Shown here: positions 5,062-45,521 of the stretch, one piece after another
Numbering within the stretch: the first letter of the stretch is position 1
How the letters are laid out: every line of letters begins with the position of its first letter
IMG/VR virus record: IMGVR_UViG_3300023174_002791
Span: 1 to 59,269 of that record
DNA: 59,269 nucleotides
Direction: 5' to 3' (one strand)
From: a virus
The notes under the pieces: model-generated
Database searches by the model: none
Told to the model about the DNA's origin: nothing
The model's input: the letters and a program-made list of their open reading frames with translations, nothing else
Position numbers and translations under genes: made by a program

Positions 5062-5268
5062 TTACACGCGGCGACCCCAACTAACCCTGTTCCACACTCT
5101 TTCGTGCAAATAGTAAAGAGTGATTTTTGTAAACACTTCGAATCCAGCAATAAGTCCAGCCGTGGATGCTTTTCCAGTCACAATCCAACTGACAAGAAAA
5201 GTGTCAGCCGTACCTGTTGCTCGCCAAGTAAATGCTTTTGCGAGAGAACGAGACTTTGTTACATTCAC
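5062..5268 (-). CDS. DUF2061 small membrane protein
   Basis: A 68-residue protein matching the DUF2061 pattern: SRSLAKAFTWRATGTADT, a hydrophobic LVSWIV helix, then GLIAGFEVFTKITLYYLHERVW. Two short hydrophobic stretches make it an inner-membrane candidate. It starts with GTG at 5268 and overlaps the hydroxylase TGA. I recall DUF2061 occurring beside or fused to APS kinase domains, and a CysC-like gene is two genes upstream here. Its function is unknown; a role in sulfate metabolism is inferred from context. Confidence 0.8.
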   Translation of the reverse strand: MNVTKSRSLAKAFTWRATGTADTFLVSWIVTGKASTAGLIAGFEVFTKITLYYLHERVWNRVSWGRRV

Positions 5269-5822
5269 GCTAAATACCCATTCGGAATAATGTCAATCAT
5301 TAAGTGAACACGGTCTACGGTAGAAGGATTCTGGACTTCGTGCGTGAGCATATTGTTGATTTCCCATAACTCACCTTCACGCATATTGATTCCTCGACCA
5401 TCTATGAAAAACAAGACTTCATTAGAGGTGACAATGGGAATATGGTGACGACGTACAACATCTAGATAATCACCACCGTCTTGATGGGGTTGGATATTGC
5501 CACCAGCCATAAGTTTAGGAAGCATTACGCGACCAGCCTTGCCATTGTGGTACTGCTCAAGAAACTGAACAATAGGATAAATCTCTCTCCACAAATCAGA
5601 ATCAGGGTGCGTGACTGTTCCTACGTATGGCATACCTATCTGCCAATCAAGAGGACAATCGTGCAGAAAGTAAGTCTGAGTTAAAGCGTGGTTTTCAAAC
5701 GTGACTTGACGAGAAGTATTCTCAAGCCATTCTTCTTCTGTAAGAACGCCAACTAATTCTTTAATACGGCTTACATCTACATTACGAATGTGCCTAAATG
5801 TAAAAGGTTCGAACGACTTCAA
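5265..5822 (-). CDS. Aspartyl/asparaginyl beta-hydroxylase-like dioxygenase
   Basis: A 185-residue protein with the residues of a 2-oxoglutarate/Fe(II) dioxygenase of the Asp/Asn hydroxylase family: the HQD metal pair at H113/D115, a distal His at 161 in NMLTHEVQN, and Arg171 in VDRVHLM as a likely 2-oxoglutarate contact. GELWEINN at about 150-157 is typical of the family. It probably hydroxylates a protein side chain. It starts with TTG in a TTGA overlap with the kinase gene upstream. The substrate is unknown; virion or host surface proteins are possible given the location. Confidence 0.85.
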   Translation of the reverse strand: MKSFEPFTFRHIRNVDVSRIKELVGVLTEEEWLENTSRQVTFENHALTQTYFLHDCPLDWQIGMPYVGTVTHPDSDLWREIYPIVQFLEQYHNGKAGRVMLPKLMAGGNIQPHQDGGDYLDVVRRHHIPIVTSNEVLFFIDGRGINMREGELWEINNMLTHEVQNPSTVDRVHLMIDIIPNGYLA

Positions 5823-6574
5823 ATCCCTAACTCTTTTCTTTTCTGCGTGGCTGAAATAGCCTCAATCTCATCACCAAGTTTAACCTGCTCTATTTTATAA
5901 CCTACATCACGACCATAAACGATATTTGTAATGTTAGGAAATTTTACAACCATAGCGTTTCTCATCTTAACGTCGGCTTCAATAAAGGTCTTTACCTCAG
6001 CAAACATAAGCGGGTCTTTCTCGCTGGTCTTATAAGTATTACGAACACCAAGCACTACTTGGTCAGTGCGCTTGCCAGCCTCATCATACAAAGCGTGGTG
6101 TCCTTCGTGCCACGGTTGATAACGACCAAGCATAAGAGTTGTGGGTTTACGCCAGTCATACAAGCCACAATGGAAAATTACTAACTCGGCTTCTTCAGCA
6201 ATAGACATACCTTCAAAAATCATTACATCAAATTCAGTAGGGTCTTCCCACATTTTGTTTGTATCTACAAAGCGACCTTCTTTGATTCTGTTTACCCATA
6301 TAAGTTTGTCAGGCACACCAAAGGCTTCACGTGTTTCTTTAGTTGGACAAATGAAGTCAACAATGACTATCTGACCCTGCTCATCTAGCAAACGAGCAAG
6401 CGCTCCTAACCTACGAGCGTTCTCTATGCGGTCTTCTATAGCAAAACCAAGGTCTTTGTTAAGGTCTGCTCTAACTTTGTCGGCATTGATATGAATACCG
6501 TTTACGCGGTCTGCTAACTCAACAGCAAGGGAGGTTTTACCTGCACCCGCTTGACCGATAATTTGAATTATCAC
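5819..6574 (-). CDS. APS kinase-like domain fused to nucleotidyltransferase domain
   Basis: A 251-residue fusion. The N-terminal half has Walker A GQAGAGKT at 7-14, then NADKVRADLNKDLGF and EDRIENARRLG, which are hallmark CysC (adenylylsulfate kinase) segments, and an FICPTKETRE strand-loop. The C-terminal half carries GRYQPWHEGH at about 150-159, the HxGH motif of nucleotidyltransferases such as NMN or cytidylyl transferases; ATP sulfurylase belongs to the same superfamily. It starts at GTG 6574 after AGGAGGAG. CysC makes PAPS, the sulfate donor used by sulfotransferases. The second domain's substrate is unclear. Confidence 0.82.
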   Translation of the reverse strand: MIIQIIGQAGAGKTSLAVELADRVNGIHINADKVRADLNKDLGFAIEDRIENARRLGALARLLDEQGQIVIVDFICPTKETREAFGVPDKLIWVNRIKEGRFVDTNKMWEDPTEFDVMIFEGMSIAEEAELVIFHCGLYDWRKPTTLMLGRYQPWHEGHHALYDEAGKRTDQVVLGVRNTYKTSEKDPLMFAEVKTFIEADVKMRNAMVVKFPNITNIVYGRDVGYKIEQVKLGDEIEAISATQKRKELGI

Positions 6575-6586
6575 TACACTCCTCCT

Positions 6587-7267
6587 ATGAGCACTCAAAC
6601 AATTTACTGGGCGGCTTACAACCAAGACTCTACACCTGAATTAGCCTTACAGCCACTGACTCGGCATATAGCAGACGCTCAAAGTGGTCACATAAACGAG
6701 AACCATCTTGCCTGTCCAGCAATTAGGGGTAAACACTCAAATACTTTTTACAGCACCTTTCCTTATGATTTAGAAGTTACTTTTAACGGTGGTCTTACAT
6801 CAAACAAGCAAGAGATGATAGAACAAAGAACAGGTCTGTATAAAGACTCATACGCCTTCAATTGGAATTACTACAGAATCTTTTTCTCACCTACATCTCA
6901 GATGATGGAAACTAGCCCAGCATTTCTTCACAACACTTCTTACTCACAACAAGGACACGCGCCAAGCGGAGCCTTTGACATAGGCAAATGGTTTAGACCC
7001 TCAGCGCCAGCCTTCCAATTGTGGTCTGGAGTTACAGAGTTCAAAGCACTGAAAGACGAGGCTCATCTTTACTTTAATTTTCCCTCTGCAAACAGAATCA
7101 TATTCCAAGAGTTCAAAATGACAGAAACGCTTTATAAGATTAGCAACGCTTCAGTTAATCTAAAAAGTCACTTACCAAGGGAAGGTCTTTCTTCTCTATA
7201 CAGTCGTTATACGCAAGCAGGTTTTAGCAAAAAGATTATGGCTGAGATTGAAGCCAACCTTCGGTGA
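6587..7267 (+). CDS. Plus-strand paralogue of the 7907-8623 protein
   Basis: This is the only convincing plus-strand gene. From the ATG at 6587 it encodes 226 residues. It shares with the minus-strand 7907-8623 product the opening TIYW/TVYW, the G-FDIG-WFRP motif, a hydrophobic LYFNF/AYIKF strand, FKMTE/FYMTK, and the ending GLSSLYSRYTQAGFSKKI / GLSYLYNKFTKRGLNKVI. There is no purine-rich ribosome site before its ATG; the adjacent CCTCCT is the minus gene's AGGAGG read backwards. Its 3' end overlaps the sulfotransferase gene tail to tail by 32 bases. The function is unknown; the beta-rich form suggests a virion or sugar-binding protein. Confidence 0.72.
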   Translation: MSTQTIYWAAYNQDSTPELALQPLTRHIADAQSGHINENHLACPAIRGKHSNTFYSTFPYDLEVTFNGGLTSNKQEMIEQRTGLYKDSYAFNWNYYRIFFSPTSQMMETSPAFLHNTSYSQQGHAPSGAFDIGKWFRPSAPAFQLWSGVTEFKALKDEAHLYFNFPSANRIIFQEFKMTETLYKISNASVNLKSHLPREGLSSLYSRYTQAGFSKKIMAEIEANLR

Positions 7268-7904
7268 ACCAATCCATAGAATTTTTGTATTTTTGTATTA
7301 CATAATCAGACAGAACCTTTTCAGGATTTGTTTCAGACATACTTATTTGTGGTCGTACAACGTGCAGAGTAGGGATACCAAACTGCTCTTTATCTTTAGA
7401 CGTATCACCTTGAGGAATGTTTTGTAAATTGTGTGCATACGGAGTTAATTCTAAAAACCGATACAGGCAATCAAGGACTTCTTCTGTGTTTGTTATCAAA
7501 TCGTTATAACTTAACAAGTAAAACCAATCTTTATAAATAACGCTATTTAGAAAGGCAGTAAAGATTTTATCTATTTCACCATTAGGTCTCATTAACCAAT
7601 CACAACGAGCGTCATTAACTGGTCTATACGCTAATGGTGTGAAGTTTTCATCCTGCATAGATTTATCTATAAAGTTGTCAACAGGATATTTTTCTGCTAA
7701 CTGAACAAACGAAGCAAGTATTTCTAATACAGGTCTATACATAAGAATAATTTTAGGATTTTGTAGATGATATGTTTTTTCAATCAAATCATTTGTTCCT
7801 ATTCCTCTATCAGTAGTAACGGACAGATTAGGATTCTGGTGCAAGATGCTTGACAACAATGTACTACCGCTTCTAGGTAAGCCAGCAATAAAATAATTAC
7901 TCAT
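7236..7904 (-). CDS. Sulfotransferase family protein
   Basis: A 222-residue protein with the PAPS-binding signature. The 5'-phosphosulfate loop PRSGSTLL is at 10-17 and a 3'-phosphate-like segment MYRPVLEILASF is at about 55-66, with the expected Arg and Ser. The fold family transfers sulfate from PAPS to hydroxyl or amine groups on sugars, peptides or lipids. With the CysC-like gene nearby, donor synthesis and transfer could both be phage-encoded. It starts at 7904 just after the stop of the upstream gene. The acceptor is unknown. Confidence 0.85.
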   Translation of the reverse strand: MSNYFIAGLPRSGSTLLSSILHQNPNLSVTTDRGIGTNDLIEKTYHLQNPKIILMYRPVLEILASFVQLAEKYPVDNFIDKSMQDENFTPLAYRPVNDARCDWLMRPNGEIDKIFTAFLNSVIYKDWFYLLSYNDLITNTEEVLDCLYRFLELTPYAHNLQNIPQGDTSKDKEQFGIPTLHVVRPQISMSETNPEKVLSDYVIQKYKNSMDWFTEGWLQSQP

Positions 7905-16528: not shown

Positions 16529-17023
16529 TTATAGCGTCTCAGCCAAAGTAGCCTTCAATTGCCACTCCCATTTTTCTAACATATCTATGCGCTCGCCAAG
16601 AAAGTTAATAAGCCCTTGTTCATCCTCAACAGTTGCTAGTTCTAGGCACATTTCCGTACATTCGTCTAATTCTTCTATAGCACCGTACAAATCTTTAAGC
16701 ATTTCAATAGCAGTAATCGGCATCATCTCTGGGTCTTGAATAGTACGGTTTTTCATAAAATCGCTTAGACCACATAATGAATCTTTATCTAATTTGCGGA
16801 GCCATTCGCCAGTAGGGTCAATTGAGCCATAAAGGTCTTCATAGATTTCTTGAAAGAATTCGTGATACGCAGCAAAGTTTAATCCTTTTACATTCCAGTG
16901 ATAACCGTGAGCACGGTGGTAAACACTTACTGTATTTGAAAGCAACATACGGAGACTTGCTTCTAAGTCAGGCGCTACTTCCTCCTGAACTATAAACCAA
17001 TTACCATTCATATCTTTTTCCAT
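16529..17023 (-). CDS. Dps/ferritin-like protein
   Basis: A 164-residue protein that fits the DNA-protection ferritin (Dps) family. The motif HGYHWNVKG is at about 39-47, followed by YHEFFQEIYEDLY at 53-65 and a GEWLRKL helix. His42, His54, Glu58 and Asp63 match the positions of the ferroxidase residues. Dps proteins oxidise and store iron and bind DNA as 12-mers. It starts in a TAATG overlap with the XkdF-like gene, inside the capsid module, which is an odd place for a stress protein; a packaged or capsid role is possible. Confidence 0.8.
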   Translation of the reverse strand: MEKDMNGNWFIVQEEVAPDLEASLRMLLSNTVSVYHRAHGYHWNVKGLNFAAYHEFFQEIYEDLYGSIDPTGEWLRKLDKDSLCGLSDFMKNRTIQDPEMMPITAIEMLKDLYGAIEELDECTEMCLELATVEDEQGLINFLGERIDMLEKWEWQLKATLAETL

Positions 17024-29334: not shown

Positions 29335-30954
29335 TCAGAGCGTCCAGCCGCTAGGCTGCGTTAGGGATATTGGGGCTATGGGTGTGGAGTTTCTGTAACG
29401 CGGTGGGGTGTACAGGGCTAACAACACTGCCTCTGCTCTATCGGGCGAGTTCATACCACGCCGTTTCATCTCTGATTTCTTTTCAATGACAATACGCCCA
29501 CTTGAATCTGATTTGTACGTCGGTGTCGATAACTGCGCCAGAGTTTTACGGTCAAGGTTCAAACGAATCTCTTGGGTTACACCTTCTTCAGTACGCTGAG
29601 GTTGCAACAATTGACGACAGTTCCACCACATCTCGGCACGCTGGTTTCCAAACTTTGCAGCATCGCCAGCACGCTCTCCAACGCTTACGGGAATTATTTC
29701 AGACGAATGACGCTTCTCATCTTTCCAACGGTCAAGCACTGACCTGACACCCCAGCCAACACCAATAACGTCAATCTTCACACGAACTTTCTCAGTGACA
29801 CCGCGCTCGCGATGCACTCTTTCTGCGGCAAGAATTTGTTGCAGGATTACACCTGCTACGTCAACGGCATTAGCGTTAGCGGCACCAGAACTGTTATGAC
29901 GTACAGATAGTTTCCCACCGTCATTCCAAGCAATAGCAAATTCGTCTCCACCATCTGATGCAACGTCTACGCCAAGTTGAATTGTTTCCCCACTCATAAA
30001 GTCCTCATTGTCAGTAGACATCTCAGCCCAAGACAACGGAATCACTTTGTTTGTACTGCTAGTTGGAAAACGTGCGTGTACGCGAGCCTCTACGAAAGCA
30101 GAATCATCTCCGAACTCTGAGATTACGTCATCCACCCAAGTCTTATCAACGAGGTGGTCTGTTACTGGATGTTCAGATACAGAAGGTGGACAAGATGAAC
30201 AGATACCAGCATCTTCGCCTGTGAAGTTAGGAGTGTTATAAGCGGAGATAGGGATTACGTTATACAAATCTGAATTACAAGCGCGTTCGAAGAATGAACC
30301 TTCTTGGTCTGTAGGTGGATTACCCAATAACAATAAACGTGTATGACCACCAGTCATAAGCGCTTCTAATGACCTGCCTAAAGTTTCATTGATACCGCCA
30401 GCCTCATCAACAATTACAAGTAAGTGAGGAGCGTGGATACCCTGAACAGCAGACTCATCATTCTGTCCACCACCAAAACCATAACCAACAATGTTGTTAT
30501 CTATCTTCCACTCTACGGTAAAGACTTCACCAGCAAGGTTATGCCTTTCGTGGACTTTTCTAATGCCCTGCCACAAGATGTTTCTGACCTGACGGAAGGT
30601 TGTCGCTGTTGATACAACTTGAGCAGTGCCTACTGGGTGAACTGAAATCCACCAAGCAACAATACGTGCGGCAATGTGTGACTTTCCAGGGGCGTGACAA
30701 GCAGGAACAGCAGTACGTTTGTTATCACGAACGCTCTCAAGAATTTCCTGTTGCTTTGACCATACGTTCTCTTTTAAGCCTTGCGTTACAAAACCTACAG
30801 GGTCATTCTCAAAACGTAGCCAAGGATTGCTGATTTCATTGTCCAGCAGATTCTTTAGGGCATAACGTTCCTCAGCATTGAGTGAAGGATAAATCTTTAA
30901 TCTATCTTCACGCGGGAGACTGAGCAGACGCTGTACTGGATTAGCGTTAGTCAC
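29335..30954 (-). CDS. terL: Terminase large subunit
   Basis: A 539-residue protein. The ATPase region has a Walker A variant ACHAPGKS at about 85-92 and Walker B LLVIVDEAGG at about 178-187, with a LLLLGNPPTDQEGSFFE segment. The C-terminal nuclease has an LGVDVASDGGDEFAIAW acidic strand and a MWWNCRQLL region. It packages DNA into the prohead. It starts with GTG after AGGAC. It is separated from the portal by about 8 kb of small genes, which is unusual. Confidence 0.92.
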   Translation of the reverse strand: MTNANPVQRLLSLPREDRLKIYPSLNAEERYALKNLLDNEISNPWLRFENDPVGFVTQGLKENVWSKQQEILESVRDNKRTAVPACHAPGKSHIAARIVAWWISVHPVGTAQVVSTATTFRQVRNILWQGIRKVHERHNLAGEVFTVEWKIDNNIVGYGFGGGQNDESAVQGIHAPHLLVIVDEAGGINETLGRSLEALMTGGHTRLLLLGNPPTDQEGSFFERACNSDLYNVIPISAYNTPNFTGEDAGICSSCPPSVSEHPVTDHLVDKTWVDDVISEFGDDSAFVEARVHARFPTSSTNKVIPLSWAEMSTDNEDFMSGETIQLGVDVASDGGDEFAIAWNDGGKLSVRHNSSGAANANAVDVAGVILQQILAAERVHRERGVTEKVRVKIDVIGVGWGVRSVLDRWKDEKRHSSEIIPVSVGERAGDAAKFGNQRAEMWWNCRQLLQPQRTEEGVTQEIRLNLDRKTLAQLSTPTYKSDSSGRIVIEKKSEMKRRGMNSPDRAEAVLLALYTPPRYRNSTPIAPISLTQPSGWTL

Positions 30955-30962
30955 AAATAGTC

Positions 30963-31514
30963 CTAACTGGATTCTGTTTTAGGTTTAGCAACGGCTTTCT
31001 TTTTAGGCGCTTTCTTTTTAACGGGTTTTACTTCTACGGCTTCTTCTATCTCTTTAGGTTTGTCTTTTTCACGTATAGCAATAACCTGATTTAACTTGCT
31101 TTCAAGTTCATCTACGCTAACTGTAATGGATAAAGGAGCACCATTAGCGCCTGTGATTTCTTGCCTCTCAAAACGTCCCCATTTACGAGGATACGAACGT
31201 TCAAGATACCAAGCAGCAGCAGACCAAGTCCCCTCCATCGCAGCCTTCTGGATTAAAGCAAGCGAACGAACTTCTGAATTGGCTCTAGTTTTCTCTACTG
31301 CCTCGCAAAACTCGCGGTACGGAGTTTCTTCTGGGTCAGGAACAGCATCTTCGTCATCAGACATACGGGTACGCTCGATACGCCCACGCTCTAGCCACCG
31401 ATACATTGTTGCTTCGTGGATGCCAGCATAAGCAGCAGCAGTCTCTATGTAGTTACCACTGTTAAGGGCTTCAACAACCAATGCCTGTAATTCAGGTGTT
31501 AGTTTTGTTTTCAT
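30963..31514 (-). CDS. terS: Terminase small subunit-like protein
   Basis: A 183-residue protein. An N-terminal HTH (NYIETAAAYAGIHEATMYRWLERGR, about 21-45), a central helical SEVRSLALIQKAAMEGTWSAAAWYLERSYPRKWGR segment and a basic, Lys/Ala-rich tail match small terminase subunits. It directly precedes the large subunit. It binds the packaging site. A TATAAT abuts the ATG, so the start may need experimental proof. Confidence 0.8.
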   Translation of the reverse strand: MKTKLTPELQALVVEALNSGNYIETAAAYAGIHEATMYRWLERGRIERTRMSDDEDAVPDPEETPYREFCEAVEKTRANSEVRSLALIQKAAMEGTWSAAAWYLERSYPRKWGRFERQEITGANGAPLSITVSVDELESKLNQVIAIREKDKPKEIEEAVEVKPVKKKAPKKKAVAKPKTESS

Positions 31515-32900: not shown

Positions 32901-33533
32901 CTACCCTAGTTCTAGTGTGTCTTCATCAAGCATACCTTCTGCCTGAAGTGACGCACGGGGACGTGGAGGATTGACAGGTTCTCCTAATAGCCCTGTACGA
33001 ACAGCACGGGCTTTTTCTTGATAGATGTCTGGGAGATTAGGGTCAGCATTTTCTAAAAACATTCCTTCATCAAAGAAATGGTCAAAGCCTCTACCCATCT
33101 TCTTACCTGCATACGTGTGCTTATCTAAAGCAACATCTGGAATTTCTTTGTATGGAATATGGTCTGACCACGCCCACATCTTTGAATGGTCACAGATACG
33201 AGACTTCTTTGCTCTAACTAAAAGCAGAATTGCGTGAACCATATACATACGCTCTGGGAATAGACGCTCATCTTTCTTTTTCTTTTCTTGAACCCAGTTC
33301 TCATAGAGCGCACGGATTGTTGCTGGTAAGTATGGCTCTGCAAGCCCTATATCTTCTGAAGTAATAATACGAATACGCTTCCAAACATATTCCCCATAAC
33401 CACTTCTATCTAATTCCGCAGCCCAATATAAAGAATCTTCTTCCCATCCACGTCTAATTGATTTCTGAAATGATGAAGACACTTCATTGAATAAGTAGCC
33501 TCTAATTGTTGGCGGTATTTTTTGAACGGACAT
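32901..33533 (-). CDS. MgsA/RarA C-terminal domain-like protein
   Basis: A 210-residue protein. Residues about 18-60 (FQKSIRRGWEEDSLYWAAELDRSGYGEYVWKRIRI, then ITSEDIGLAEPYLP) closely match the C-terminal tetramerisation domain of MgsA/RarA ATPases, the family of clamp-loader-like replication-recovery proteins. The ATPase domain is missing. It may form a lid-only adaptor that acts on host replication. It begins a transcript with an operator-like palindrome upstream. Confidence 0.78.
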   Translation of the reverse strand: MSVQKIPPTIRGYLFNEVSSSFQKSIRRGWEEDSLYWAAELDRSGYGEYVWKRIRIITSEDIGLAEPYLPATIRALYENWVQEKKKKDERLFPERMYMVHAILLLVRAKKSRICDHSKMWAWSDHIPYKEIPDVALDKHTYAGKKMGRGFDHFFDEGMFLENADPNLPDIYQEKARAVRTGLLGEPVNPPRPRASLQAEGMLDEDTLELG

Positions 33534-33606: not shown

Positions 33607-34353
33607 TCAACGGAAGATTTGACTGTTAATGATTGGTTGCCACTTGTGCGTGATACCTGCTCTAGCGTTGCCTTTCTTTGCATCGACTGCATCGCCAAAA
33701 TGTTCTTTCAAGATATTAAATGAACGCTCAAGTTCATCGTGCGTACGCCAATTAGCGAGACCCCCTGTGTTATGGAATGTCGCTTTATGGTGGAGACCAA
33801 ATCGCTGGTCTACAAACACCATACGGTGATGGTACATATTCAGTAATGCAATCCACATATCGTTGTTCACGTACATATCTGGTCGCCAGTAAAACTTGGC
33901 TCCCTTGAGTAATCCTAAACCGTGACCATTTACGAATCCTGTTAAACGGAAAGGTCTCATCGGTGAACACATTGCAGGGTCTTCCCACGGAGCAAATCCC
34001 CACAGGTGTACGCCCATTTGACGAGCAGTGTCTGCTGTTCTTTGTACAACGGCATACGCTCTCTCAGGCGACATCTTATAAGTTTCACCTGCGGCAACTG
34101 ACAAATCGGTCATAGCGGTAATGTCATCATCAACTTGGAAGACATCACCCCAGTAATCATAAATCCACTGACGCTTTGACGCTAAACCTTTAATGCTGTC
34201 AGGGTGTACAACGATTTCTTTATCTGGATACGCCTCACGGTATAACTTCTCCTGAGATTCAGCCACACAAAGAATTGCCATCGGGAAAACTTTGAACGTA
34301 GTGACATTGCCAGCCCGTCCGTGCGTGGGAATAACTATTGCTACTTCCCCCAT
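33607..34353 (-). CDS. Glycosyltransferase-like protein (TAGT type)
   Basis: A 248-residue GT-A-like protein. It has EVAIVIPTHGRAGNV at the start, then a FQVDDDITAM acidic nucleotide-sugar motif (Asp75-77). A SKRQWIYDYWGD segment and a GFVNGHGLGLLKG loop follow. The pattern resembles the TET/JBP-associated glycosyltransferases found in phage DNA-modification gene sets. It is coupled by a 13-base overlap to a ParB-like gene. Transfer to DNA is an inference from neighbours; a protein or surface acceptor is also possible. Confidence 0.72.
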   Translation of the reverse strand: MGEVAIVIPTHGRAGNVTTFKVFPMAILCVAESQEKLYREAYPDKEIVVHPDSIKGLASKRQWIYDYWGDVFQVDDDITAMTDLSVAAGETYKMSPERAYAVVQRTADTARQMGVHLWGFAPWEDPAMCSPMRPFRLTGFVNGHGLGLLKGAKFYWRPDMYVNNDMWIALLNMYHHRMVFVDQRFGLHHKATFHNTGGLANWRTHDELERSFNILKEHFGDAVDAKKGNARAGITHKWQPIINSQIFR

Positions 34354-34958
34354 AGCGATTTCAACCTTTCAATTGTTACAACGTGCGACGTGCCTACAAC
34401 TTCTTTCTTGTACGACTTCTCCATACGCAGGTCAAACTTTGTTCTCATATACGCAGCATCTGTTTCATTCGTAGCAATTACAAGAACATAGTCATAATTT
34501 TCTGATGGTCGAGCAACAATTGGGAAGATAGGGTCTATCTCTTTATTAGGTTTATCAAGTTTCGCTAATAACTTATCAATTGCATCTTGGTCATAACCAG
34601 GAACGGGACCAACTTCCTGAAGTAGTTCTGCAAGCATTACGTCGTCCCACTTGGCTAAATCACCAGACGCGTTATCTGCAAGGCTTCTTCTTTGTGCAGT
34701 CGCGTCATCATCATCTACCCACGCAACGTCAATGTGTGTCCAGCCTAATGTTTGTGCGGCTTTGTATAAATGGTTACCAGCAATAATTCTTTTAGTCGAA
34801 CGCTGAACAACAATTGGTCTGTGCTGACCAAACTCTCTAATGGATTCTACAATTGCTGCAACGTTACCTTTACGAGCATTACGTTGGTCTAGAACTAATT
34901 CCGCAAGCGGTACTGACTCAACATCCATATTAGTTAAGTTAGTTTTTTTGTCAGCCAT
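34341..34958 (-). CDS. ParB-like protein, single domain
   Basis: A 205-residue protein. A ParB N-terminal nuclease-like domain spans residues about 12-110 with SVPLAELVLDQRNARKG, VAAIVESIREFGQHRPIVV, RIIAGNHLYKAA and LADNASGDLA. The C-terminal 90 residues have TNETDAAYMRTKFDLRMEKS and probably a partner-binding role. ParB-like domains bind or hydrolyse nucleotides. It sits with a glycosyltransferase gene, as in predicted DNA-modification clusters. Confidence 0.82.
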   Translation of the reverse strand: MADKKTNLTNMDVESVPLAELVLDQRNARKGNVAAIVESIREFGQHRPIVVQRSTKRIIAGNHLYKAAQTLGWTHIDVAWVDDDDATAQRRSLADNASGDLAKWDDVMLAELLQEVGPVPGYDQDAIDKLLAKLDKPNKEIDPIFPIVARPSENYDYVLVIATNETDAAYMRTKFDLRMEKSYKKEVVGTSHVVTIERLKSLWGK

Positions 34959-36191
34959 TTAAAATCCCTCTCCTGCGAATACGCAAGCGTCTAGTGGTAT
35001 GCCTAACCTTAACGCTAATTCTTGCTCTTTGTTTTGACGGGGAAGTCCTTCTTCAAAGACATTCCAAGACAAACGGTCTATACGGAAACGGAAAGCACCA
35101 AGGTTTACGACAACCTTGCCTGACCTGTTATGACCAGGACGGGTTGCGCCACCACTGACAATATCCTGTACATCATCGGCATCAAATCCTGTCCCCTCAA
35201 ATTTTGTTACAGACATTAGTAAGTTAGAAAGAGTTGTTGCATCATACGACGCTAAATCAGCAGTTCTATTATCTGCTAAAACTATTTTGGTCGCCTGTTC
35301 ATCATTAACATCAAGGTACACAACCGCCAACTCCGTCCAACCTAACGAGCGTGCAGCAAAGAATGTGTGGTTACCAATCAGTACGGTGCCATCCATACGG
35401 CATACAAGCGGACGGAACTGACCATTCATCTCAAGGCTTTGAGCAATCGCTCCAATGTCACCTTCGCGTGCGTTTCCAGACAACGGGATTAAGTTCTCAA
35501 TTGGTACAACCGTAACATTTACATCTGACATTGACACTTGACGAGTCTTGCTTTCTTCTTTCTTCTGTCTTACAAGTTCAGGCATACCCAATTGCGCTCG
35601 CAACGTAGTAATCGCAACACCGTTCCTGCCCTCAGCATTGTCAAGATGGTGTGAATACCAAACATCGTAAGGGTCTTTCAACACATTCCATCTGTACTGA
35701 CCTACCTTGAACAACACTTCATCGGATATGGGGGTCTCTGGGAGTGCTCCGTCTAATGGTGCTCCGATTAAATCCTCTAGGTTCGTTTCTAAGCCATCAA
35801 TCTGACCCTTCAGGTGGTCTAGGTACCCCCCGTCAAATCCTGTCCCGTCTAAATCGGGCAGGGATTCCAACAACGCTAAGAGTGCTGAGTCGTCATACGA
35901 AGCCAAGTCGCTCGTACGGTTATCTGCAAGCACAATACGCTTTGCTGTTTCTTCATCCACATCCACATACGTTACATTGACAGACGACCACTTTAATCTT
36001 TGCATCGCTTGCCACGTGTGCGAGCCAGCAAGAATGTAATTAGTTTTACGGTCAACCACAATCGGTTTGTATTGACCGTGCGCCATCAAGGATTCTGCAA
36101 TTGCATCAACGTCACCCCGACGTGGATTTTGCGGGTACGGCTGAACATCACCAATCGGTATGACAGTAGTACCAGTAATTCTTACATTCAC
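34959..36191 (-). CDS. Tandem ParB-domain protein
   Basis: A 410-residue protein with two ParB domains. The first (about 1-115) has IPIGDVQPYPQNPRRGD, SLMAHGQYKPIVV, YILAGSHTWQA and LADNRTSDLA. The second (about 225-335) repeats VPIENLIPLSGNAREGD, GQFRPLV, VLIGNHTFFAA and LADNRTADLA. A conserved C-terminal segment follows. With the next gene the locus carries three such domains. This is unusual and points to a dedicated nucleotide-handling function. Confidence 0.85.
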   Translation of the reverse strand: MNVRITGTTVIPIGDVQPYPQNPRRGDVDAIAESLMAHGQYKPIVVDRKTNYILAGSHTWQAMQRLKWSSVNVTYVDVDEETAKRIVLADNRTSDLASYDDSALLALLESLPDLDGTGFDGGYLDHLKGQIDGLETNLEDLIGAPLDGALPETPISDEVLFKVGQYRWNVLKDPYDVWYSHHLDNAEGRNGVAITTLRAQLGMPELVRQKKEESKTRQVSMSDVNVTVVPIENLIPLSGNAREGDIGAIAQSLEMNGQFRPLVCRMDGTVLIGNHTFFAARSLGWTELAVVYLDVNDEQATKIVLADNRTADLASYDATTLSNLLMSVTKFEGTGFDADDVQDIVSGGATRPGHNRSGKVVVNLGAFRFRIDRLSWNVFEEGLPRQNKEQELALRLGIPLDACVFAGEGF

Positions 36192-36457
36192 TTAATGGAT
36201 TCCTTTTCATCAGACGCTTCTACGAGTTCAAACAAATCAGCATCTGCGAGCGCTCGAATAAACTCAGGGGCTGGTAGTTCTTCGCTTACATCAGTCTTCG
36301 ACCAGACCCAAGCACGCCAAGATAGTTCTACGCGCAACGAACGTTCAGTGAAATCATTCCATTGGAATTCACCTATCTCGGTCAGTAACGCCTCGGCACT
36401 TTTAGCCGAGGTGCTACCACCGCTTTTCCATTTGACTTTCCACATAGGACGAAACAT
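36188..36457 (-). CDS. Hypothetical protein, 89 aa
   Basis: I use the ATG at 36457 (AAAGGAA upstream); the frame opens at 36481. An 89-residue protein with a MWKVKWKSGGSTSAKSAEAL start, a SWRAWVWSKTDV strand and an acidic Glu/Asp-rich end. It is small and possibly a partner of the ParB-like protein with which it overlaps by four bases. No family is recognised. Confidence 0.6.
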   Translation of the reverse strand: MFRPMWKVKWKSGGSTSAKSAEALLTEIGEFQWNDFTERSLRVELSWRAWVWSKTDVSEELPAPEFIRALADADLFELVEASDEKESIK

Positions 36458-36489
36458 TACAACACATTCCTTTCTAGGCAAGTGGATTC

Positions 36490-37350
36490 TTAGTAGCCGT
36501 CAGTCCACATATCTACGTGGCGCCAATTGCTGTTATCAAATGGGTCATCACTAGGGTCTGCACTGTGGTCTGCACCAGCAAGTTCTAGAGCGAGAGCATC
36601 CTCATCAGTGAGCACGTTCGCACTCTCATATTGAGTAATGTCTGTGTATTCGACCAAACGTCCTCGGCGGACTTTGATATATGACCACTCTGGTATCTGC
36701 TCTATCCAATCCAATTTGATACCAGCATCTTTGACAGCCTTGCCGAGCAACATATCGGTTGACGCGAATAAGAATGAACCAGCGGCAGTCTGAGCGACAG
36801 CCAACGGACTGTTGCAACATCTCGCCAAGTGGAGGTCAGTACCTGTTCTGGTATCTAGCCAAGCCACAGCAGCACCACCATCAAGAAGACCAAGTAGGTC
36901 AGTCGGCTTTGATTCTGAGTTCTTGTACGAAGCCAACATTGAGAAGATTGCTTCACTGTCAACTTCAGCCTTACGGCGGTGGGTCGTGTAGTTCTCAAAG
37001 ATTTCTTTGTGATTACTAACGTGACCGTTGTGAACGCCAACTACATCGCCAACTCTGATTGGGTGGTTGTTCAAATTGTTTAACGGTGAACCAAGCGTTG
37101 CAAACCGTGTATGGAAGATTGCAGTCTTAGCATCAACAGGAAGTTTGTCACCATACTTCTTGACGAACTCGAACGCATTGACGTTTGATTTGTAGTTCTT
37201 AATCAGACGGTTCTCTGGCTTACCAGTTACGAAAGCCATACCAGTAGCGTGAGCACCACGGGTAACTATCTGGTGCAGTAAAGCACTACCCAACTTGTTT
37301 GCATTGATGTCTTCATCAGTCTTCAGACTGAAACCAGCGATTCCGCACAT
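36490..37350 (-). CDS. Class II glutamine amidotransferase
   Basis: A 286-residue Ntn-type glutaminase. The nucleophile is Cys2 in MCGIAGFSL. Conserved GATase II motifs follow: ATGMAFV, a HTRFATLGSP segment, VGVHNGHVSNH and VDSEAIF. It releases ammonia from glutamine for a partner synthetase. The natural partner here is the amidoligase gene directly upstream in transcription. No synthetase domain is attached. Standalone versions occur in actinophages with amidoligases. Confidence 0.87.
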   Translation of the reverse strand: MCGIAGFSLKTDEDINANKLGSALLHQIVTRGAHATGMAFVTGKPENRLIKNYKSNVNAFEFVKKYGDKLPVDAKTAIFHTRFATLGSPLNNLNNHPIRVGDVVGVHNGHVSNHKEIFENYTTHRRKAEVDSEAIFSMLASYKNSESKPTDLLGLLDGGAAVAWLDTRTGTDLHLARCCNSPLAVAQTAAGSFLFASTDMLLGKAVKDAGIKLDWIEQIPEWSYIKVRRGRLVEYTDITQYESANVLTDEDALALELAGADHSADPSDDPFDNSNWRHVDMWTDGY

Positions 37351-37375
37351 AATGTTTCTCCTTTTTCTCTCTCGG

Positions 37376-38314
37376 TTATCGCGCTAGAACTTCTGCGCGA
37401 GCAGTTAGGTAGTTGACGGTTTCTTCTGATAGACCAGCGTGAACGTTTAGGTCTGCAAGCATTTCTGCTAGGTCGATTCTGATATTGGCTTCTACGTGAT
37501 TCTTAGCAGCAGAGATAAGCGCCTGAGTGAACAAAATCCAGTGGCGCAACTTTGCACCATCAAGTGAACCTTGATGTTGGCGAATTTCGATAGTGCCATA
37601 TTTTGGATAAGACATCACATTGATTTTGCGGTAACGATTATAAGAATTGCGGATGCGTCCAGTTTGAATGAACTCATTTTGGATATTACGCAGTTCGGTG
37701 TCGCTGAGGTTCTGGCAGAAGGTGTTGCGATTCTCACGGCGAGAACGGCTAACAAGTGAGTCAATTGCAATCTGACGCTCTGACCACAGTGTTACGAAGG
37801 CAGCAATCTCAGAACCACTAAGTCCTTGCATATCGTGGTGAACGTGGATTCCTGTAGTTACGTTCACAGTTGCACCTGCATTGGACAGAGTTGTTACAGC
37901 AAGTTCAAGTTGAACAAGTCCCGCTTCACCGCGAAGTGGTGGAGATACGAGTTCACCGCAACCATTACCTTCGTGGCGGACAGAACCATCTGGTACAAGT
38001 TTCCAGTGACGGCGAGTAGTGTGGTTGTACGCTTCATTGACTGCATTGATGCCAGCAGCCTGTAACGCAGCCTCAGCCTCAGAACGACTGATTCCACTGA
38101 ACTCTATCTCTACACCGAAGCGGCGACCTTGAGCAGCAGTTGAACCACCGCTTAGGCGGAGGATTCCTGAACGTACAGCATTGCGTGCAGATGACGCAGT
38201 TGAGTAGCCCAACGCAGTTGCGATGGCTTGGTATGAATGACCTTGCTCGAACATTTCTACGGCAGAGCGCAGACGTGCTTCTGTTATGTCGGCTCTTACT
38301 CTCATTCTTGGCAT
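37376..38314 (-). CDS. Amidoligase-like enzyme with N-terminal helix-turn-helix
   Basis: A 312-residue protein. Residues about 10-55 look like an HTH (EQGHSYQAIATALGYST). The rest follows the amidoligase_2 fold, related to glutamine synthetase: FGVEIEFSG at about 66-74, WKLVPDGSVRHEG, GCGELVSPPLRGE, a GIHVHHDMQGL metal-like segment, and a TIEIRQHQGSLD motif. It should form amide bonds using ATP. The adjacent glutaminase could provide ammonia. The HTH fusion suggests action near DNA. Confidence 0.85.
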   Translation of the reverse strand: MPRMRVRADITEARLRSAVEMFEQGHSYQAIATALGYSTASSARNAVRSGILRLSGGSTAAQGRRFGVEIEFSGISRSEAEAALQAAGINAVNEAYNHTTRRHWKLVPDGSVRHEGNGCGELVSPPLRGEAGLVQLELAVTTLSNAGATVNVTTGIHVHHDMQGLSGSEIAAFVTLWSERQIAIDSLVSRSRRENRNTFCQNLSDTELRNIQNEFIQTGRIRNSYNRYRKINVMSYPKYGTIEIRQHQGSLDGAKLRHWILFTQALISAAKNHVEANIRIDLAEMLADLNVHAGLSEETVNYLTARAEVLAR

Positions 38315-38517
38315 TTCGTTTCCGTTTCTCTATGTGGTCTGGGGCTTTCCCATTACGGACTACATTAGACCTATCGGGGGTTAGGTGTCTATCCGTGATT
38401 CAAGCCATTTTGGGCGTGTTGCGTTTTCAGGTGCTCCGTGACCTGCCCGTTTACCGTGTGACGTAGATAACAGTCTGACCAGTCAGGCTTTTGTACCAAA
38501 TGTCCGAAACAACGGGG
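38315..38517 (-). other. Intergenic promoter region upstream of amidoligase
   Basis: A 203-base gap with a strong promoter/operator (see 38362-38391), a small ctgac-tg-gtcag dyad near 38477 close to the GP88 end, and a gcgtgttgcgtt segment similar to 23.34 kb. No ORF of useful length is present. It divides the UGDH/GP88 pair from the amidoligase group. Confidence 0.5.
38362..38391 (-). promoter_or_regulatory. Promoter with embedded TATC-GGGG-GTTA operator
   Basis: On the minus strand TAGACA (38391-38386) and TAATGT (38367-38362) are 18 bases apart. The operator-like site (38372-38383 on the plus strand) starts four bases into the spacer, exactly as in the 23296-23325 promoter. It would drive amidoligase, glutaminase and ParB genes. 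Confidence 0.6.
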
Positions 38518-39330
38518 CTAGAGGCTGGAATCTGCCAATCGCTCGGCTCGGTGGGAATCTCTATCTGACTGAAGACCAGCAAAGGTTTTACCAGACATAC
38601 GCTTTTTAAAATGCGGAATGTTATTAGCAGGAATACCAATACGTACGTTAGGCAACAATACAGCCTGCAAGTCATTATCACTCTGGTCTACATAACCATC
38701 TTCAGTCATTGACACTAATGATAGAAAAACATCAGCGTGACGGTCTGTATCTTTATCAACGAGTGAATCTTGACGACCACCCATCGAATACAACCAACGA
38801 AAATTATCAGGTGCTACACCATCAACCATACGGCGGAATCGGGACACTTCTTTCGTGTACGCATAGAACAACACATCAGGTACAGCACGTGCAACTTCAA
38901 GCCAAGCGTCAGTGTATTCATCACTAAAAAAATCACCGCTGTCGTGAACGCGCACGGCTTTGCCACCAGACAACAACCACTGACGCACCCATTCATCTAC
39001 GCTGTCTAACGGCACCCGTTCAATTTCTTTTGGTACACCAGTCGGACGAAATCTTTTAGCGCCCAACTCAGTAATCATTGCGGTCTTCCAACCCTCAAGG
39101 TCATCAAGCACAAAATGTAAATTCAGTAAGTGTTTACGTCGGACGGCTGGAAACAAATACGTTCCGTTACGTGCGTAGCAGACCTGAGCACAAGCACCTG
39201 CTTCTGGACAAACGTTGAAGTTGCGACCATCTAATAATTTGACTGCAAACGCTGGTAACGTCCAGTTTGAAATACCATCGGCACGTAGTTCACTATTACT
39301 TGTCAGTAGTTTTGCTGGTCTAGGTATCAA
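38518..39330 (-). CDS. GP88 family protein
   Basis: A 270-residue protein, TTG start overlapping the UGDH stop (TTGA), with AGGAG upstream. It has a VCPEAGACAQVCYARNG cysteine motif (about 41-57) that could hold an Fe-S cluster or zinc, and a GKAVRVHDSGDFFSDEYTDAWL block. This matches the GP88 family (gene product 88) in mycobacteriophages. The function is unknown. The Cys pattern and HDSGDF block suggest an enzyme. Confidence 0.78.
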   Translation of the reverse strand: MIPRPAKLLTSNSELRADGISNWTLPAFAVKLLDGRNFNVCPEAGACAQVCYARNGTYLFPAVRRKHLLNLHFVLDDLEGWKTAMITELGAKRFRPTGVPKEIERVPLDSVDEWVRQWLLSGGKAVRVHDSGDFFSDEYTDAWLEVARAVPDVLFYAYTKEVSRFRRMVDGVAPDNFRWLYSMGGRQDSLVDKDTDRHADVFLSLVSMTEDGYVDQSDNDLQAVLLPNVRIGIPANNIPHFKKRMSGKTFAGLQSDRDSHRAERLADSSL

Positions 39331-40670
39331 TCGCTAACTCCTTTTAGTCTGGTCTCTAACAAATCTTTCAAACGGTTATTAGCCTGAATACCAACACCTA
39401 CATAAGTGAACCCTGCTGCGACTGCTGCATTAGCATCAAGTATGTTGCGAGCATCTACAATTTTCTTTGAAGCCATTACTGCTCCTATTTGATGAAGGTC
39501 ATATCCTACAAATTCAGACCATTCCGTAAGGATTACAAGAGCATCTGCTCCATTGCACGCTTCTATCGGAGTTCGAACAATATCCCACGGCAAATCTTTT
39601 GTTTCTACAACAGGGTCAAAGGCTACTATCTCTGCGCCAAGCGACATCATTTCTGTAATTACTGCAAACGCTGGACTTTCACGCATATCAGAGGTGTCAG
39701 CCTTAAATGCTAATCCCCAAACAGCAATCTTCTTTCCTTCTAAGTCTCCTACAATCCATTCCAAACGATTAACAATTTTCTTGGGTTGTTCATCATTGGA
39801 TTTAACAGCAGCCCTAACAATTCTTAAATCTATTTTATGGTCGTGCGCTGTTGCAAGCAAAGCCATCGTATCTTTTGGAAAGCACGAACCTCCCCAACCA
39901 GCACTAGGCGCTAAGAATGATTCTCCTATGCGACGGTCACTGCCAAAGCCTCTACGAACGTCTGCGTAGTCTGCTCCTATTGCATCGCACAATTCTGCTA
40001 TCTCATTACCAAAAGTTATCTTTGTTGCTAAGAAACCATTAGCGGCATATTTACATAGTTCTGCGCTCAAAGTAGACATAATCATAATTGGGGCTTTGAT
40101 ATTACGGTACAACTTAGTAACGAACTCCCCTGCCTCTAAATTGTCAGCGCCAATGACTATCCTGTCTGGCTTCATAAAATCTTGAACGGCGTTACCTTCT
40201 CTAAGAAATTCTGGATTGCTAACTACAGTTGCATCTTTGCGGTCTAACAAAGTGTTTAGGTAGGAGGCTGTTCCAACAGGGCTAGTTGATTTATTAACTA
40301 CAACCGTGCCTTTTGAAAACATCTTGCGATTATGTAAAACAAAACTCTCTAGATAAGAAATATCTGCTGCACCAGTTTCTGAACGTGGTGTAGGTAGGCA
40401 CAACATAACAATATCTACATCTTTGAATACGTCAGAAGCATCATAGATGAAACCTAGTCTGCCTTCCATTACATTTTTATAAACTAAATCTTCTAGATTC
40501 TTTTCATAGAACGGCAAACGTCCCTGTTGGATTGATAAAAGTTTTGACTTATCATTTTCTACACAAACAACGTTGTTTCCTAATTCTGCTAAACAAGCAG
40601 CGGTAGTTAGACCAACAAAACCTGCTCCTATAACAGCAACGTTTGAGGTGCTAAGACCTGACGCAACCAT
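39327..40670 (-). CDS. ugd: UDP-glucose 6-dehydrogenase
   Basis: A 447-residue dehydrogenase with NAD motif GAGFVG (15-20), conserved NKSTSPVGTA (about 126-135), NPEFLREGNA (152-161) and GGSCFPKD with catalytic Cys263. It would oxidise UDP-glucose to UDP-glucuronate. The length is normal for the family. It starts in a TAATG overlap with the upstream HTH gene. In a phage genome this suggests glucuronate is used for a phage-directed glycan or nucleic-acid modification. Confidence 0.93.
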   Translation of the reverse strand: MVASGLSTSNVAVIGAGFVGLTTAACLAELGNNVVCVENDKSKLLSIQQGRLPFYEKNLEDLVYKNVMEGRLGFIYDASDVFKDVDIVMLCLPTPRSETGAADISYLESFVLHNRKMFSKGTVVVNKSTSPVGTASYLNTLLDRKDATVVSNPEFLREGNAVQDFMKPDRIVIGADNLEAGEFVTKLYRNIKAPIMIMSTLSAELCKYAANGFLATKITFGNEIAELCDAIGADYADVRRGFGSDRRIGESFLAPSAGWGGSCFPKDTMALLATAHDHKIDLRIVRAAVKSNDEQPKKIVNRLEWIVGDLEGKKIAVWGLAFKADTSDMRESPAFAVITEMMSLGAEIVAFDPVVETKDLPWDIVRTPIEACNGADALVILTEWSEFVGYDLHQIGAVMASKKIVDARNILDANAAVAAGFTYVGVGIQANNRLKDLLETRLKGVSD

Positions 40671-44469: not shown

Positions 44470-44943
44470 CTAAGCCTTCGGGCGACCTACCGCCATAATT
44501 GTTTTGTAATCACGCTTCTTCAGATAGTAACCATCGCCATTTGACTGACTGCCAGCCTTACCTGACGAAGTGTTGCCCTCATACACGTACATATATTTAA
44601 GAGTCGTATTGTGACCCTTAACAATTCCAACGTGGTCAGCCATAGCGTCTTCATCGAACTGGAAGAAAACAACATCGCCAGCCTGAGCCTGACCAATCGG
44701 TACAATCTGATTGTTCTTGGTCAAATACTTTAGCCAAGCGTCACAAGATGCGAAGCCTTTCTTTGTGTTTGCAACTGAAGCAATAGCCCCAGCATCAAAG
44801 TACATCTTTGAAGCAGACATCGCACACCAAGGCTGGTTGTTAAGTCCGAACCACTTACCGAAGGTCGTGTCATTATTTTCTCCTTCTGTGTAGTTCAGTG
44901 AAGCCTCACAGAGAGCAAGCAATTTCTTTACGTCTACAGCCAT
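44470..44943 (-). CDS. CHAP-domain endolysin
   Basis: A 157-residue protein. The CHAP catalytic set is visible: Cys40 in QPWCAMSAS, His104 in ADHVGIV, and a Glu/Asn in YVYEGNTS (122-124). It lacks a visible wall-binding domain. It probably cleaves peptidoglycan cross-bridges. It starts in a TAATG overlap with the Ntn hydrolase gene and ends the late operon. Confidence 0.85.
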   Translation of the reverse strand: MAVDVKKLLALCEASLNYTEGENNDTTFGKWFGLNNQPWCAMSASKMYFDAGAIASVANTKKGFASCDAWLKYLTKNNQIVPIGQAQAGDVVFFQFDEDAMADHVGIVKGHNTTLKYMYVYEGNTSSGKAGSQSNGDGYYLKKRDYKTIMAVGRPKA

Positions 44944-45521
44944 TATTTTTCCGTCCTAGTTGTTGTTTGTTTTAACGTTCTTTTTTTCAATTGTGTGTGA
45001 TAAATGAATGGGGCTGAAGTGTACACGTCATTATTAGCGGCAACCTTTAAGGCTGTCTCTAAATCCGCACCAGCGCACAAAGCCCCTATTGCGTAATCAG
45101 AGCCTGAGCCAACACCATAGAAACCCCTGCTATCTAAAGCAACAGACATATCATCTGCAATTTCAAAAACCTGACCTCCTACAGCAATCAGGAAGGCAAA
45201 TTTTGTTTCACCGTCTGCATCGGCTTCATTCCACTTGTACTCATTGTCTTTGAAACAGTTCTTCAACGAGGGTACAACTTTAGAAATCATAAAGTGATAC
45301 AAGTCGTCTACGTCAGATGCTTTAGGGATTGGGGGTTGCCAAATGTGTTGCGCTATGTCACAAGGAGCACATTCACCAGAACCAGCAATTAGATACAAAG
45401 AACGTTCTGTTATTTTGACCATTTCGCGGTGAGACTGTCGCCTACCACCACTGCCAGTAACCTGACTGTCAGCGCCAATAACAACTTTGTCTTTGTATTG
45501 AACCGCAACGATAGTAGTCAC
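44943..45521 (-). CDS. HslV/proteasome beta-like Ntn hydrolase
   Basis: A 192-residue protein. It begins MTTIVAVQYKDKVVIGADSQ, almost the HslV opening, with Thr2 as the mature N-terminal nucleophile, Asp18 and Lys36 in proteasome-like positions, and IAGSG at 45-49. A GVGSGSDYAIGAL motif comes later. These threonine peptidases process proteins inside the cell. Next to the lysis genes it might degrade host factors or trigger lysis timing. It starts with GTG. Confidence 0.85.
   Translation of the reverse strand: MTTIVAVQYKDKVVIGADSQVTGSGGRRQSHREMVKITERSLYLIAGSGECAPCDIAQHIWQPPIPKASDVDDLYHFMISKVVPSLKNCFKDNEYKWNEADADGETKFAFLIAVGGQVFEIADDMSVALDSRGFYGVGSGSDYAIGALCAGADLETALKVAANNDVYTSAPFIYHTQLKKRTLKQTTTRTEK

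Follow-up and report, generated by a model that had tools for sequence, protein, structure and literature searches.

A TAGT-family glycosyltransferase linked to a ParB protein in a candidate DNA-modification island beside actinophage terminase genes

When a phage carries genes for sugar activation, sugar transfer and amide-bond formation side by side, it must be asked whether these genes serve a single pathway and which polymer that pathway would modify. This question is raised by the IMG/VR virus record IMGVR_UViG_3300023174_002791, which we analyzed in its entirety (59,269 bp, classed as linear; hereafter, the window). A preliminary description had joined seven contiguous minus-strand genes at positions 33607–40670 into one cassette, comprising a UDP-glucose 6-dehydrogenase (UGD), a GP88 protein, an amidoligase, a class II glutamine amidotransferase (GATase), two ParB-domain proteins and a TAGT-like glycosyltransferase, and had proposed that UDP-glucuronate is made, transferred to DNA or another polymer and then amidated. 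The genes are real and the domain calls hold: each is an intact minus-strand open reading frame in its assigned place, with Pfam matches above cut-off, although an eighth gene (36188–36481) between the GATase and ParB genes had been missed. The cassette itself, however, is a composite. Our reading of the locus, to which we assign a probability of roughly 0.6, is that of a DNA-modification island linked to ParB and close to the terminase, in a version that serves sugar transfer: a single-domain ParB protein would engage DNA and the TAGT-family enzyme would act as the catalyst.

The glycosyltransferase and its ParB partner

The glycosyltransferase gene (GT; 33607–34353, minus strand) encodes a protein with a GT-A fold and a DDD motif, matching PF20691 at 72 bits against a cut-off of 27.5, as well as phrog_842, the beta-glucosyl-HMC-alpha-glucosyltransferase family. 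Structure prediction bore out its earlier designation as TAGT-like: the AlphaFold model is confident (pLDDT 91.3, pTM 0.90), and its best matches among viral structures are TAGT-named proteins and the T-even beta-glucosyl-HMC-alpha-glucosyltransferase (viral match TM 0.74). By both profile and fold, the protein belongs to the TAGT/T-even beta-glucosyl-HMC-alpha-glucosyltransferase family. The TAGT profile gave no meaningful match against the sequences of solved structures, and solved matches came from the fold search. The DDD motif, R61, GG and R203 are invariant across 39 homologues, which suggests that the enzyme is active. In phages T2 and T6, the PF20691 protein adds a second glucose to glucosylated hydroxymethylcytosine (hmC) (PMC13216743; PMC13390438).

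Immediately upstream, and overlapping the GT gene by 13 bp, lies the gene for ParB1 (34341–34958, minus strand), which has one ParB_N domain (PF02195). To survey the coupling of these two genes, we used the GT alignment to retrieve 80 viral loci and added the window and Javan291; a GT open reading frame was recovered in 77 of these loci. The loci were dereplicated at 70% identity, and a ParB was counted if it lay within 1.3 kb upstream of GT. On this basis, ParB preceded TAGT in 21 of the 25 loci with upstream sequence, against about 1.8 expected from random placement per locus. The survey before dereplication contains 58 pairs in direct adjacency, separated by −44 to +2 bp and mostly overlapping. 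A terminase follows within 5 kb downstream in 15 of the 23 dereplicated loci with enough sequence, and these terminases form three clusters with no BLAST link between them. The TAGT-linked ParBs also have a C-terminal domain of their own, of about 65 residues, whose profile matches only TAGT-linked ParBs in the terminase-relative set; ParBs beside TET, PAPS reductase or TGT have different C-terminal ends.

The pair extends beyond actinophages. A Streptococcus prophage has it, and so do, whether or not a recognised terminase is nearby, the cultured Roseibacillus ishigakijimensis and contigs assigned to Chitinophagaceae, Phycisphaerae and Acidobacteria bins. In the scan of genome contigs, the close GT alignment yielded 0 matches and the Firmicutes-type alignment 4.

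Downstream of GT, and outside the limits first drawn for the island (33607–40670), is a gene for an MgsA_C-only protein (32901–33533, minus strand; PF12002), which has the RarA/MgsA C-terminal fold (fold match 2r9g/3pvs/8g28) without the AAA+ domain. A protein of this kind, the usual companion of the ParB-TAGT pair in the window's lineage, is encoded beside TAGT or in its vicinity in 35 loci, and the order ParB1-GT-MgsA_C recurs in other lineages, a grouping far beyond chance; the functional unit reaches past 33607 to the MgsA_C gene. These three genes also show the strongest purifying selection in the region, with dN/dS within the window's clade of 0.017–0.030 for GT, 0.023–0.040 for MgsA_C and 0.042–0.048 for ParB1, compared with 0.093–0.112 for TerL.

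Two further observations concern this unit. Among the TAGT-linked MgsA_C-only proteins (those of L023, L046 and others; such labels denote individual loci), several relatives end in a QxxLF-like sequence resembling sliding-clamp-binding motifs, whereas the window protein does not. Separately, WbqC-like and PIG-L deacetylase genes accompany ParB-TAGT in about 18–20 loci (L004, 12059–13425; L017–L037), and the terminase-related group adds an S-adenosylmethionine methyltransferase gene to this set; these accompanying genes suggest that the sugar transferred there is GlcNAc, later deacetylated and altered.

The slot beside the terminase and the question of the acceptor

The island is bounded by the TerL and TerS genes (29335–31514, minus strand), where TerL is about 50–52% identical to annotated Arthrobacter phage TerL and TerS lies just upstream of it. 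Our survey took in 51 terminase loci for which 3.3 kb or more of upstream sequence was available; cargo was assigned by cluster and confirmed with Pfam and PHROG on representatives. ParB precedes TerS in 47 of the 51, and 31 of these 47 have recognised cargo near ParB. The terminase-side island of the window's lineage has as its core a tandem protein, ParB2 (34959–36191, minus strand), in which PF02195 matches two stretches, giving two ParB_N domains. Within a constant frame of ParB, TerS and TerL, the slot that separates the ParB genes from TerS/TerL constitutes a variable modification island, and its cargo often differs between relatives.

The recognised cargo covers diverse chemistries. Relatives with C5- or N-methylase, Que genes or TGT in the slot (TerL identity 61–67%) include loci with a C-5 DNA methylase (PF00145; L126), an N6_N4_Mtase (PF01555; L128), and a set of QueF, QueC, PTPS (QueD), a QueE-like radical SAM protein, GTP cyclohydrolase I (FolE) and a TGT homologue (L110). 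The TGT homologue is DpdA-like and is also found in L094, L098 and L137, with L094 carrying a Vut_1 transporter (YhhQ-type) in its slot. Other slots hold a P-loop nucleotide kinase 3 with a PLP-enzyme-like protein (L164), a PAPS reductase (L166 and Arthrobacter phage Shrooms), a GNAT protein (Arthrobacter phage Kovu), or a ParB fused to a DNA methyltransferase (phrog_498) directly before TerS (L151). The slot of Arthrobacter phage Ottawa combines a P-loop nucleotide kinase 3 with a Tet_JBP-like protein that scores 28.4 bits, below the cut-off of 34.9. Because DNA-modifying enzymes of such varied chemistry share this position with ParB, we favor DNA as the probable substrate; the shared position is the main argument for this choice, one from association and short of proof. 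Together with the membership of GT in the TAGT family, the recognised DNA-modification enzymes of relatives uphold the earlier suggestion of a DNA-modification locus, and the island is very probably of that kind.

Shrooms (L013, 3310–6167) and Kovu (L014, 3470–6116) also share an arrangement of ParB, PAPS reductase and ParB followed by a methyltransferase or GNAT gene, directly before the terminase, which is a candidate for a sulfur- or acyl-type DNA modification.

Several observations weigh against a DNA-glycosylating island. The closest solved folds of GT are GT-A enzymes acting elsewhere, namely the wall teichoic acid transferases TarS and TarP, collagen galactosyltransferase and polypeptide GalNAc-transferases. 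No enzyme for a hydroxylated base was found, a point overlooked in the preliminary description: neither the thymidylate-synthase family (PF00303) nor TET/JBP (PF12851) was found in the window, and searches of another 45 viral records with TAGT were likewise negative, the sub-threshold protein of Ottawa being the only TET/JBP match. Many of these records are fragments, but the window itself is close to complete. The known acceptors, hydroxymethyl-pyrimidines, are therefore left without a phage-encoded source. Within the window we likewise found no C5 or N4/N6 DNA methylase genes, and the genes scanned there gave no match to the TGT and Que families. Finally, 16 of the 51 terminase loci have ParB without a recognised modification enzyme, so that the tandem ParB may serve packaging instead of modification.

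The solved folds and the missing hydroxylated-base pathway would also fit a TAGT enzyme acting on protein or a wall polymer (capsid, tail, terminase, teichoic acid or host wall), whose proximity to the terminase would reflect late expression. We consider this unlikely, as the profile and viral-fold matches are specific to TAGT and T-even DNA glucosyltransferases, and as GT is coupled to ParB in a slot common to known DNA-modification enzymes. As for the acceptor, a hydroxylated base could come from the host or from an unrecognised enzyme (ParB, the MgsA_C protein or GP88), or the enzyme could have a different target altogether. An Asp_Arg_Hydrox oxygenase encoded in the window (5265–5822) was considered as a source of the base hydroxyl and rejected as a general answer, being absent from the other TAGT records. 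The cassette of the window probably adds a sugar to the phage's DNA, and the step with which such routes ordinarily begin would be missing.

Modules within the seven-gene set

Comparison of gene order in relatives splits the putative cassette into three modules. The first consists of a single-domain ParB (195–233 aa) followed by TAGT, commonly with the MgsA_C protein, and in most loci it occurs without amidoligase, GATase or UGD.

The second module pairs the amidoligase with the class II glutaminase, and a 97-aa protein and a ParB often follow. In the window, the amidoligase (37376–38314, minus strand), a carboxylate-amine ligase matching Amidoligase_2 (PF12224) at 118.9 bits, has conserved GxExE, HVH and RxHxG positions. 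The N-terminal helix-turn-helix once ascribed to it is discernible as a match, but a weak one (HTH_23 at 19.6 bits, below the cut-off of 24.6, and a helix-turn-helix-like match to a PHROG named 'RNase E'). The GATase (36490–37350, minus strand), an N-terminal-nucleophile (Ntn) enzyme that starts Met-Cys, matches GATase_6 at 68.8 bits and also GATase_7; its Cys2 and its NNHP, GVHNG and VDSE motifs are conserved, and it is predicted to be the ammonia source for the amidoligase. The 97-aa protein (36188–36481, minus strand) matched no Pfam or PHROG family; L004, Ottawa and other loci conserve it, likewise placed after GATase and before ParB. The amidoligase and GATase are almost always found together and stand apart from the other modules: Arthrobacter phages and numerous viral contigs have the two genes but neither TAGT nor UGD. 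Relatives in viral contigs were recovered with the GATase alignment, whereas the amidoligase query alone found none.

The third module joins UGD with GP88. The UGD (39327–40670, minus strand) has the N-terminal, central and C-terminal UDPG_MGDP_dh domains and the catalytic Cys motif GGSCFPKDT, with UDP-glucose dehydrogenase 4a7p as its best solved match (E 5e-104); it is accessory to the window's clade, being present in 2 of 49 records, both from that clade. The GP88 protein (38518–39330, minus strand; PF17338, 160.8 bits) is mobile accessory cargo that also occupies the ParB-TerS slot of L120, L146, L158 and L165. In all of these proteins the pattern CPxAGxCxxxCYARxGTY...HDxGDF is invariant and may bind an Fe-S cluster.

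In the window, the genes from amidoligase through GATase, the 97-aa protein, ParB2 and ParB1 to GT form a tight run, and a gap of 203 bp, also seen in L002 and L003, sets UGD-GP88 apart from it. This bears directly on the single pathway first envisaged, in which UGD would make UDP-glucuronate, TAGT would place glucuronate on DNA, and the amidoligase with GATase would amidate it. All of the genes are intact and close together in the window's clade, and the DNA of Bacillus phage SP-15, whose hypermodification cluster contains UGD, carries glucuronolactone (PMC5977210). Such a route is conceivable for that clade; co-occurrence lends it no support outside the clade, where other TAGT and amidoligase phages lack UGD and the amidoligase-GATase pair is retained without TAGT or UGD. 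With the 203-bp gap added, we regard it as quite unlikely here, and as one conserved pathway of all seven genes we reject it, given that UGD is confined to a single clade and the sub-modules, which are what related phages conserve in place of the full set, occur apart. At the other extreme, a mosaic of unrelated accessory genes, with ParBs in packaging or partition and the enzymes as cargo without a common pathway, would account for the loci with ParB alone and for the frequent cargo turnover, but is very unlikely in view of the overlapping ParB-TAGT pairs that recur across unrelated terminases, the dedicated ParB C-terminal domain, and the very low dN/dS of exactly ParB1, GT and MgsA_C.

Proposed mechanism, known systems and genome setting

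Under the reading of a ParB-linked DNA-glycosylation island, the single-domain ParB would be a nucleotide-dependent, DNA-engaging partner comparable to DpdB, placing TAGT on newly made phage DNA; TAGT would then use a nucleotide-sugar to attach its sugar to a base or base-borne group before packaging, and the sugar would protect the DNA against nucleases. In the window's clade, UGD may supply UDP-glucuronate as the donor, as the SP-15 precedent suggests. The amidoligase and GATase would form a second, independent module that amidates a carboxylate, for which glucuronate is only one candidate, because other phages keep this pair without TAGT or UGD. More speculatively, the MgsA_C protein, having the fold of the MgsA/RarA C-terminal domain without the motor, might tie the reaction to replicated DNA. 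We also advance, as a tentative and somewhat doubtful proposal, a minimum of two genes, ParB and TAGT, that would glycosylate DNA without prior hydroxymethylation, either because ParB activates a canonical base or because GT attacks an exocyclic amine or another group directly. Such a system would offer a new route to sugar-decorated DNA across unrelated phages, with a spread covering actinophages, a Streptococcus prophage and contigs binned to Bacteroidota, Planctomycetes, Acidobacteria and Verrucomicrobia.

All parts of the island are members of known families, and Dpd and the ParB-DNA methyltransferase fusions are known examples of DNA modification linked to ParB. A 2013 paper in Nucleic Acids Research reportedly predicted TAGT/TET modification systems. 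The TAGT of T2 and T6 shares family and fold with the window GT, for which DNA glycosylation is proposed as well; in T-even phages, however, a dCMP hydroxymethylase makes the hmC to whose glucosylated form the second glucose is added, and we found no such hydroxymethylase in the window, where GT is coupled to a ParB partner. The likeness to Dpd lies in a ParB-superfamily partner beside a base-modifying enzyme and in the DpdA-like TGT and Que genes that the window's terminase relatives carry in the slot. DpdB is a ParB-like ATPase used by DpdA for base insertion into DNA (PMC12839542), and mycobacteriophage CRB2 has ParB, DpdA and Que genes beside its terminase (PMC6392294). The window differs in having no TGT or Que genes and a glycosyltransferase as the catalytic partner, and the likeness to DpdB holds at the level of the ParB superfamily. 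The phrog_498 fusions, one of which is that of relative L151, share the ParB domain and locus position with the window, but carry a fused methyltransferase catalytic domain where the window has TAGT as a separate gene. Phage amidoligase-GATase II pairs likewise combine a PF12224 ligase with an adjacent Ntn glutaminase bearing Cys2; in the window, the pair lies upstream of ParB and TAGT, together with UGD and GP88. SP-15 resembles the window in carrying a phage UGD within a DNA hypermodification gene set, and differs in its hydroxymethyl-dUMP synthase and dihydroxypentyl-uracil base; we found no mention of ParB or TAGT in the report (PMC5977210).

For a ParB-TAGT pair without a base-hydroxylating enzyme, exchangeable beside the terminase, we found no description among the open papers we searched, and priority is uncertain. 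If the reading is correct, exchangeable DNA-modification enzymes would generally be partnered by a ParB-domain protein, at a constant position next to the terminase, and a simple rule would follow for locating new base modifications in phages from metagenomes. It would also pose a sharp chemical question, namely what a DNA glycosyltransferase targets when no hydroxylated base is made. DNA modifications of this kind are relevant to how phages evade restriction and CRISPR nucleases.

The window represents a freshwater-type actinophage with an exchangeable enzyme cassette beside the DNA-packaging genes. The minus strand carries the gene order, and the genes for the major tail protein (left end) and the tail assembly chaperone (right end), which would be neighbours on a circle, suggest a nearly complete, circularly permuted genome; a search for end repeats of 11–300 bp in the window found none. 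Two WhiB genes, together with Arthrobacter phages as the closest cultured relatives, point to an actinobacterial host. A nucleotide search of the window in phage records gave no match, Rfam and tRNA scans returned nothing, and the promoter and terminator scan showed no excess over shuffles.

Elsewhere in the window, a cluster at 5062–7904 between the head-tail and tail-fibre genes encodes a DUF2061 protein, an Asp/Asn-hydroxylase-like 2-oxoglutarate oxygenase, an APS kinase with a CTP_transf-like region and a sulfotransferase, and may sulfate a glycan of the virion or of the host. The late genes include those for a ferritin/Dps-like protein (16529–17023) and a proteasome-subunit-like protein (44943–45521).

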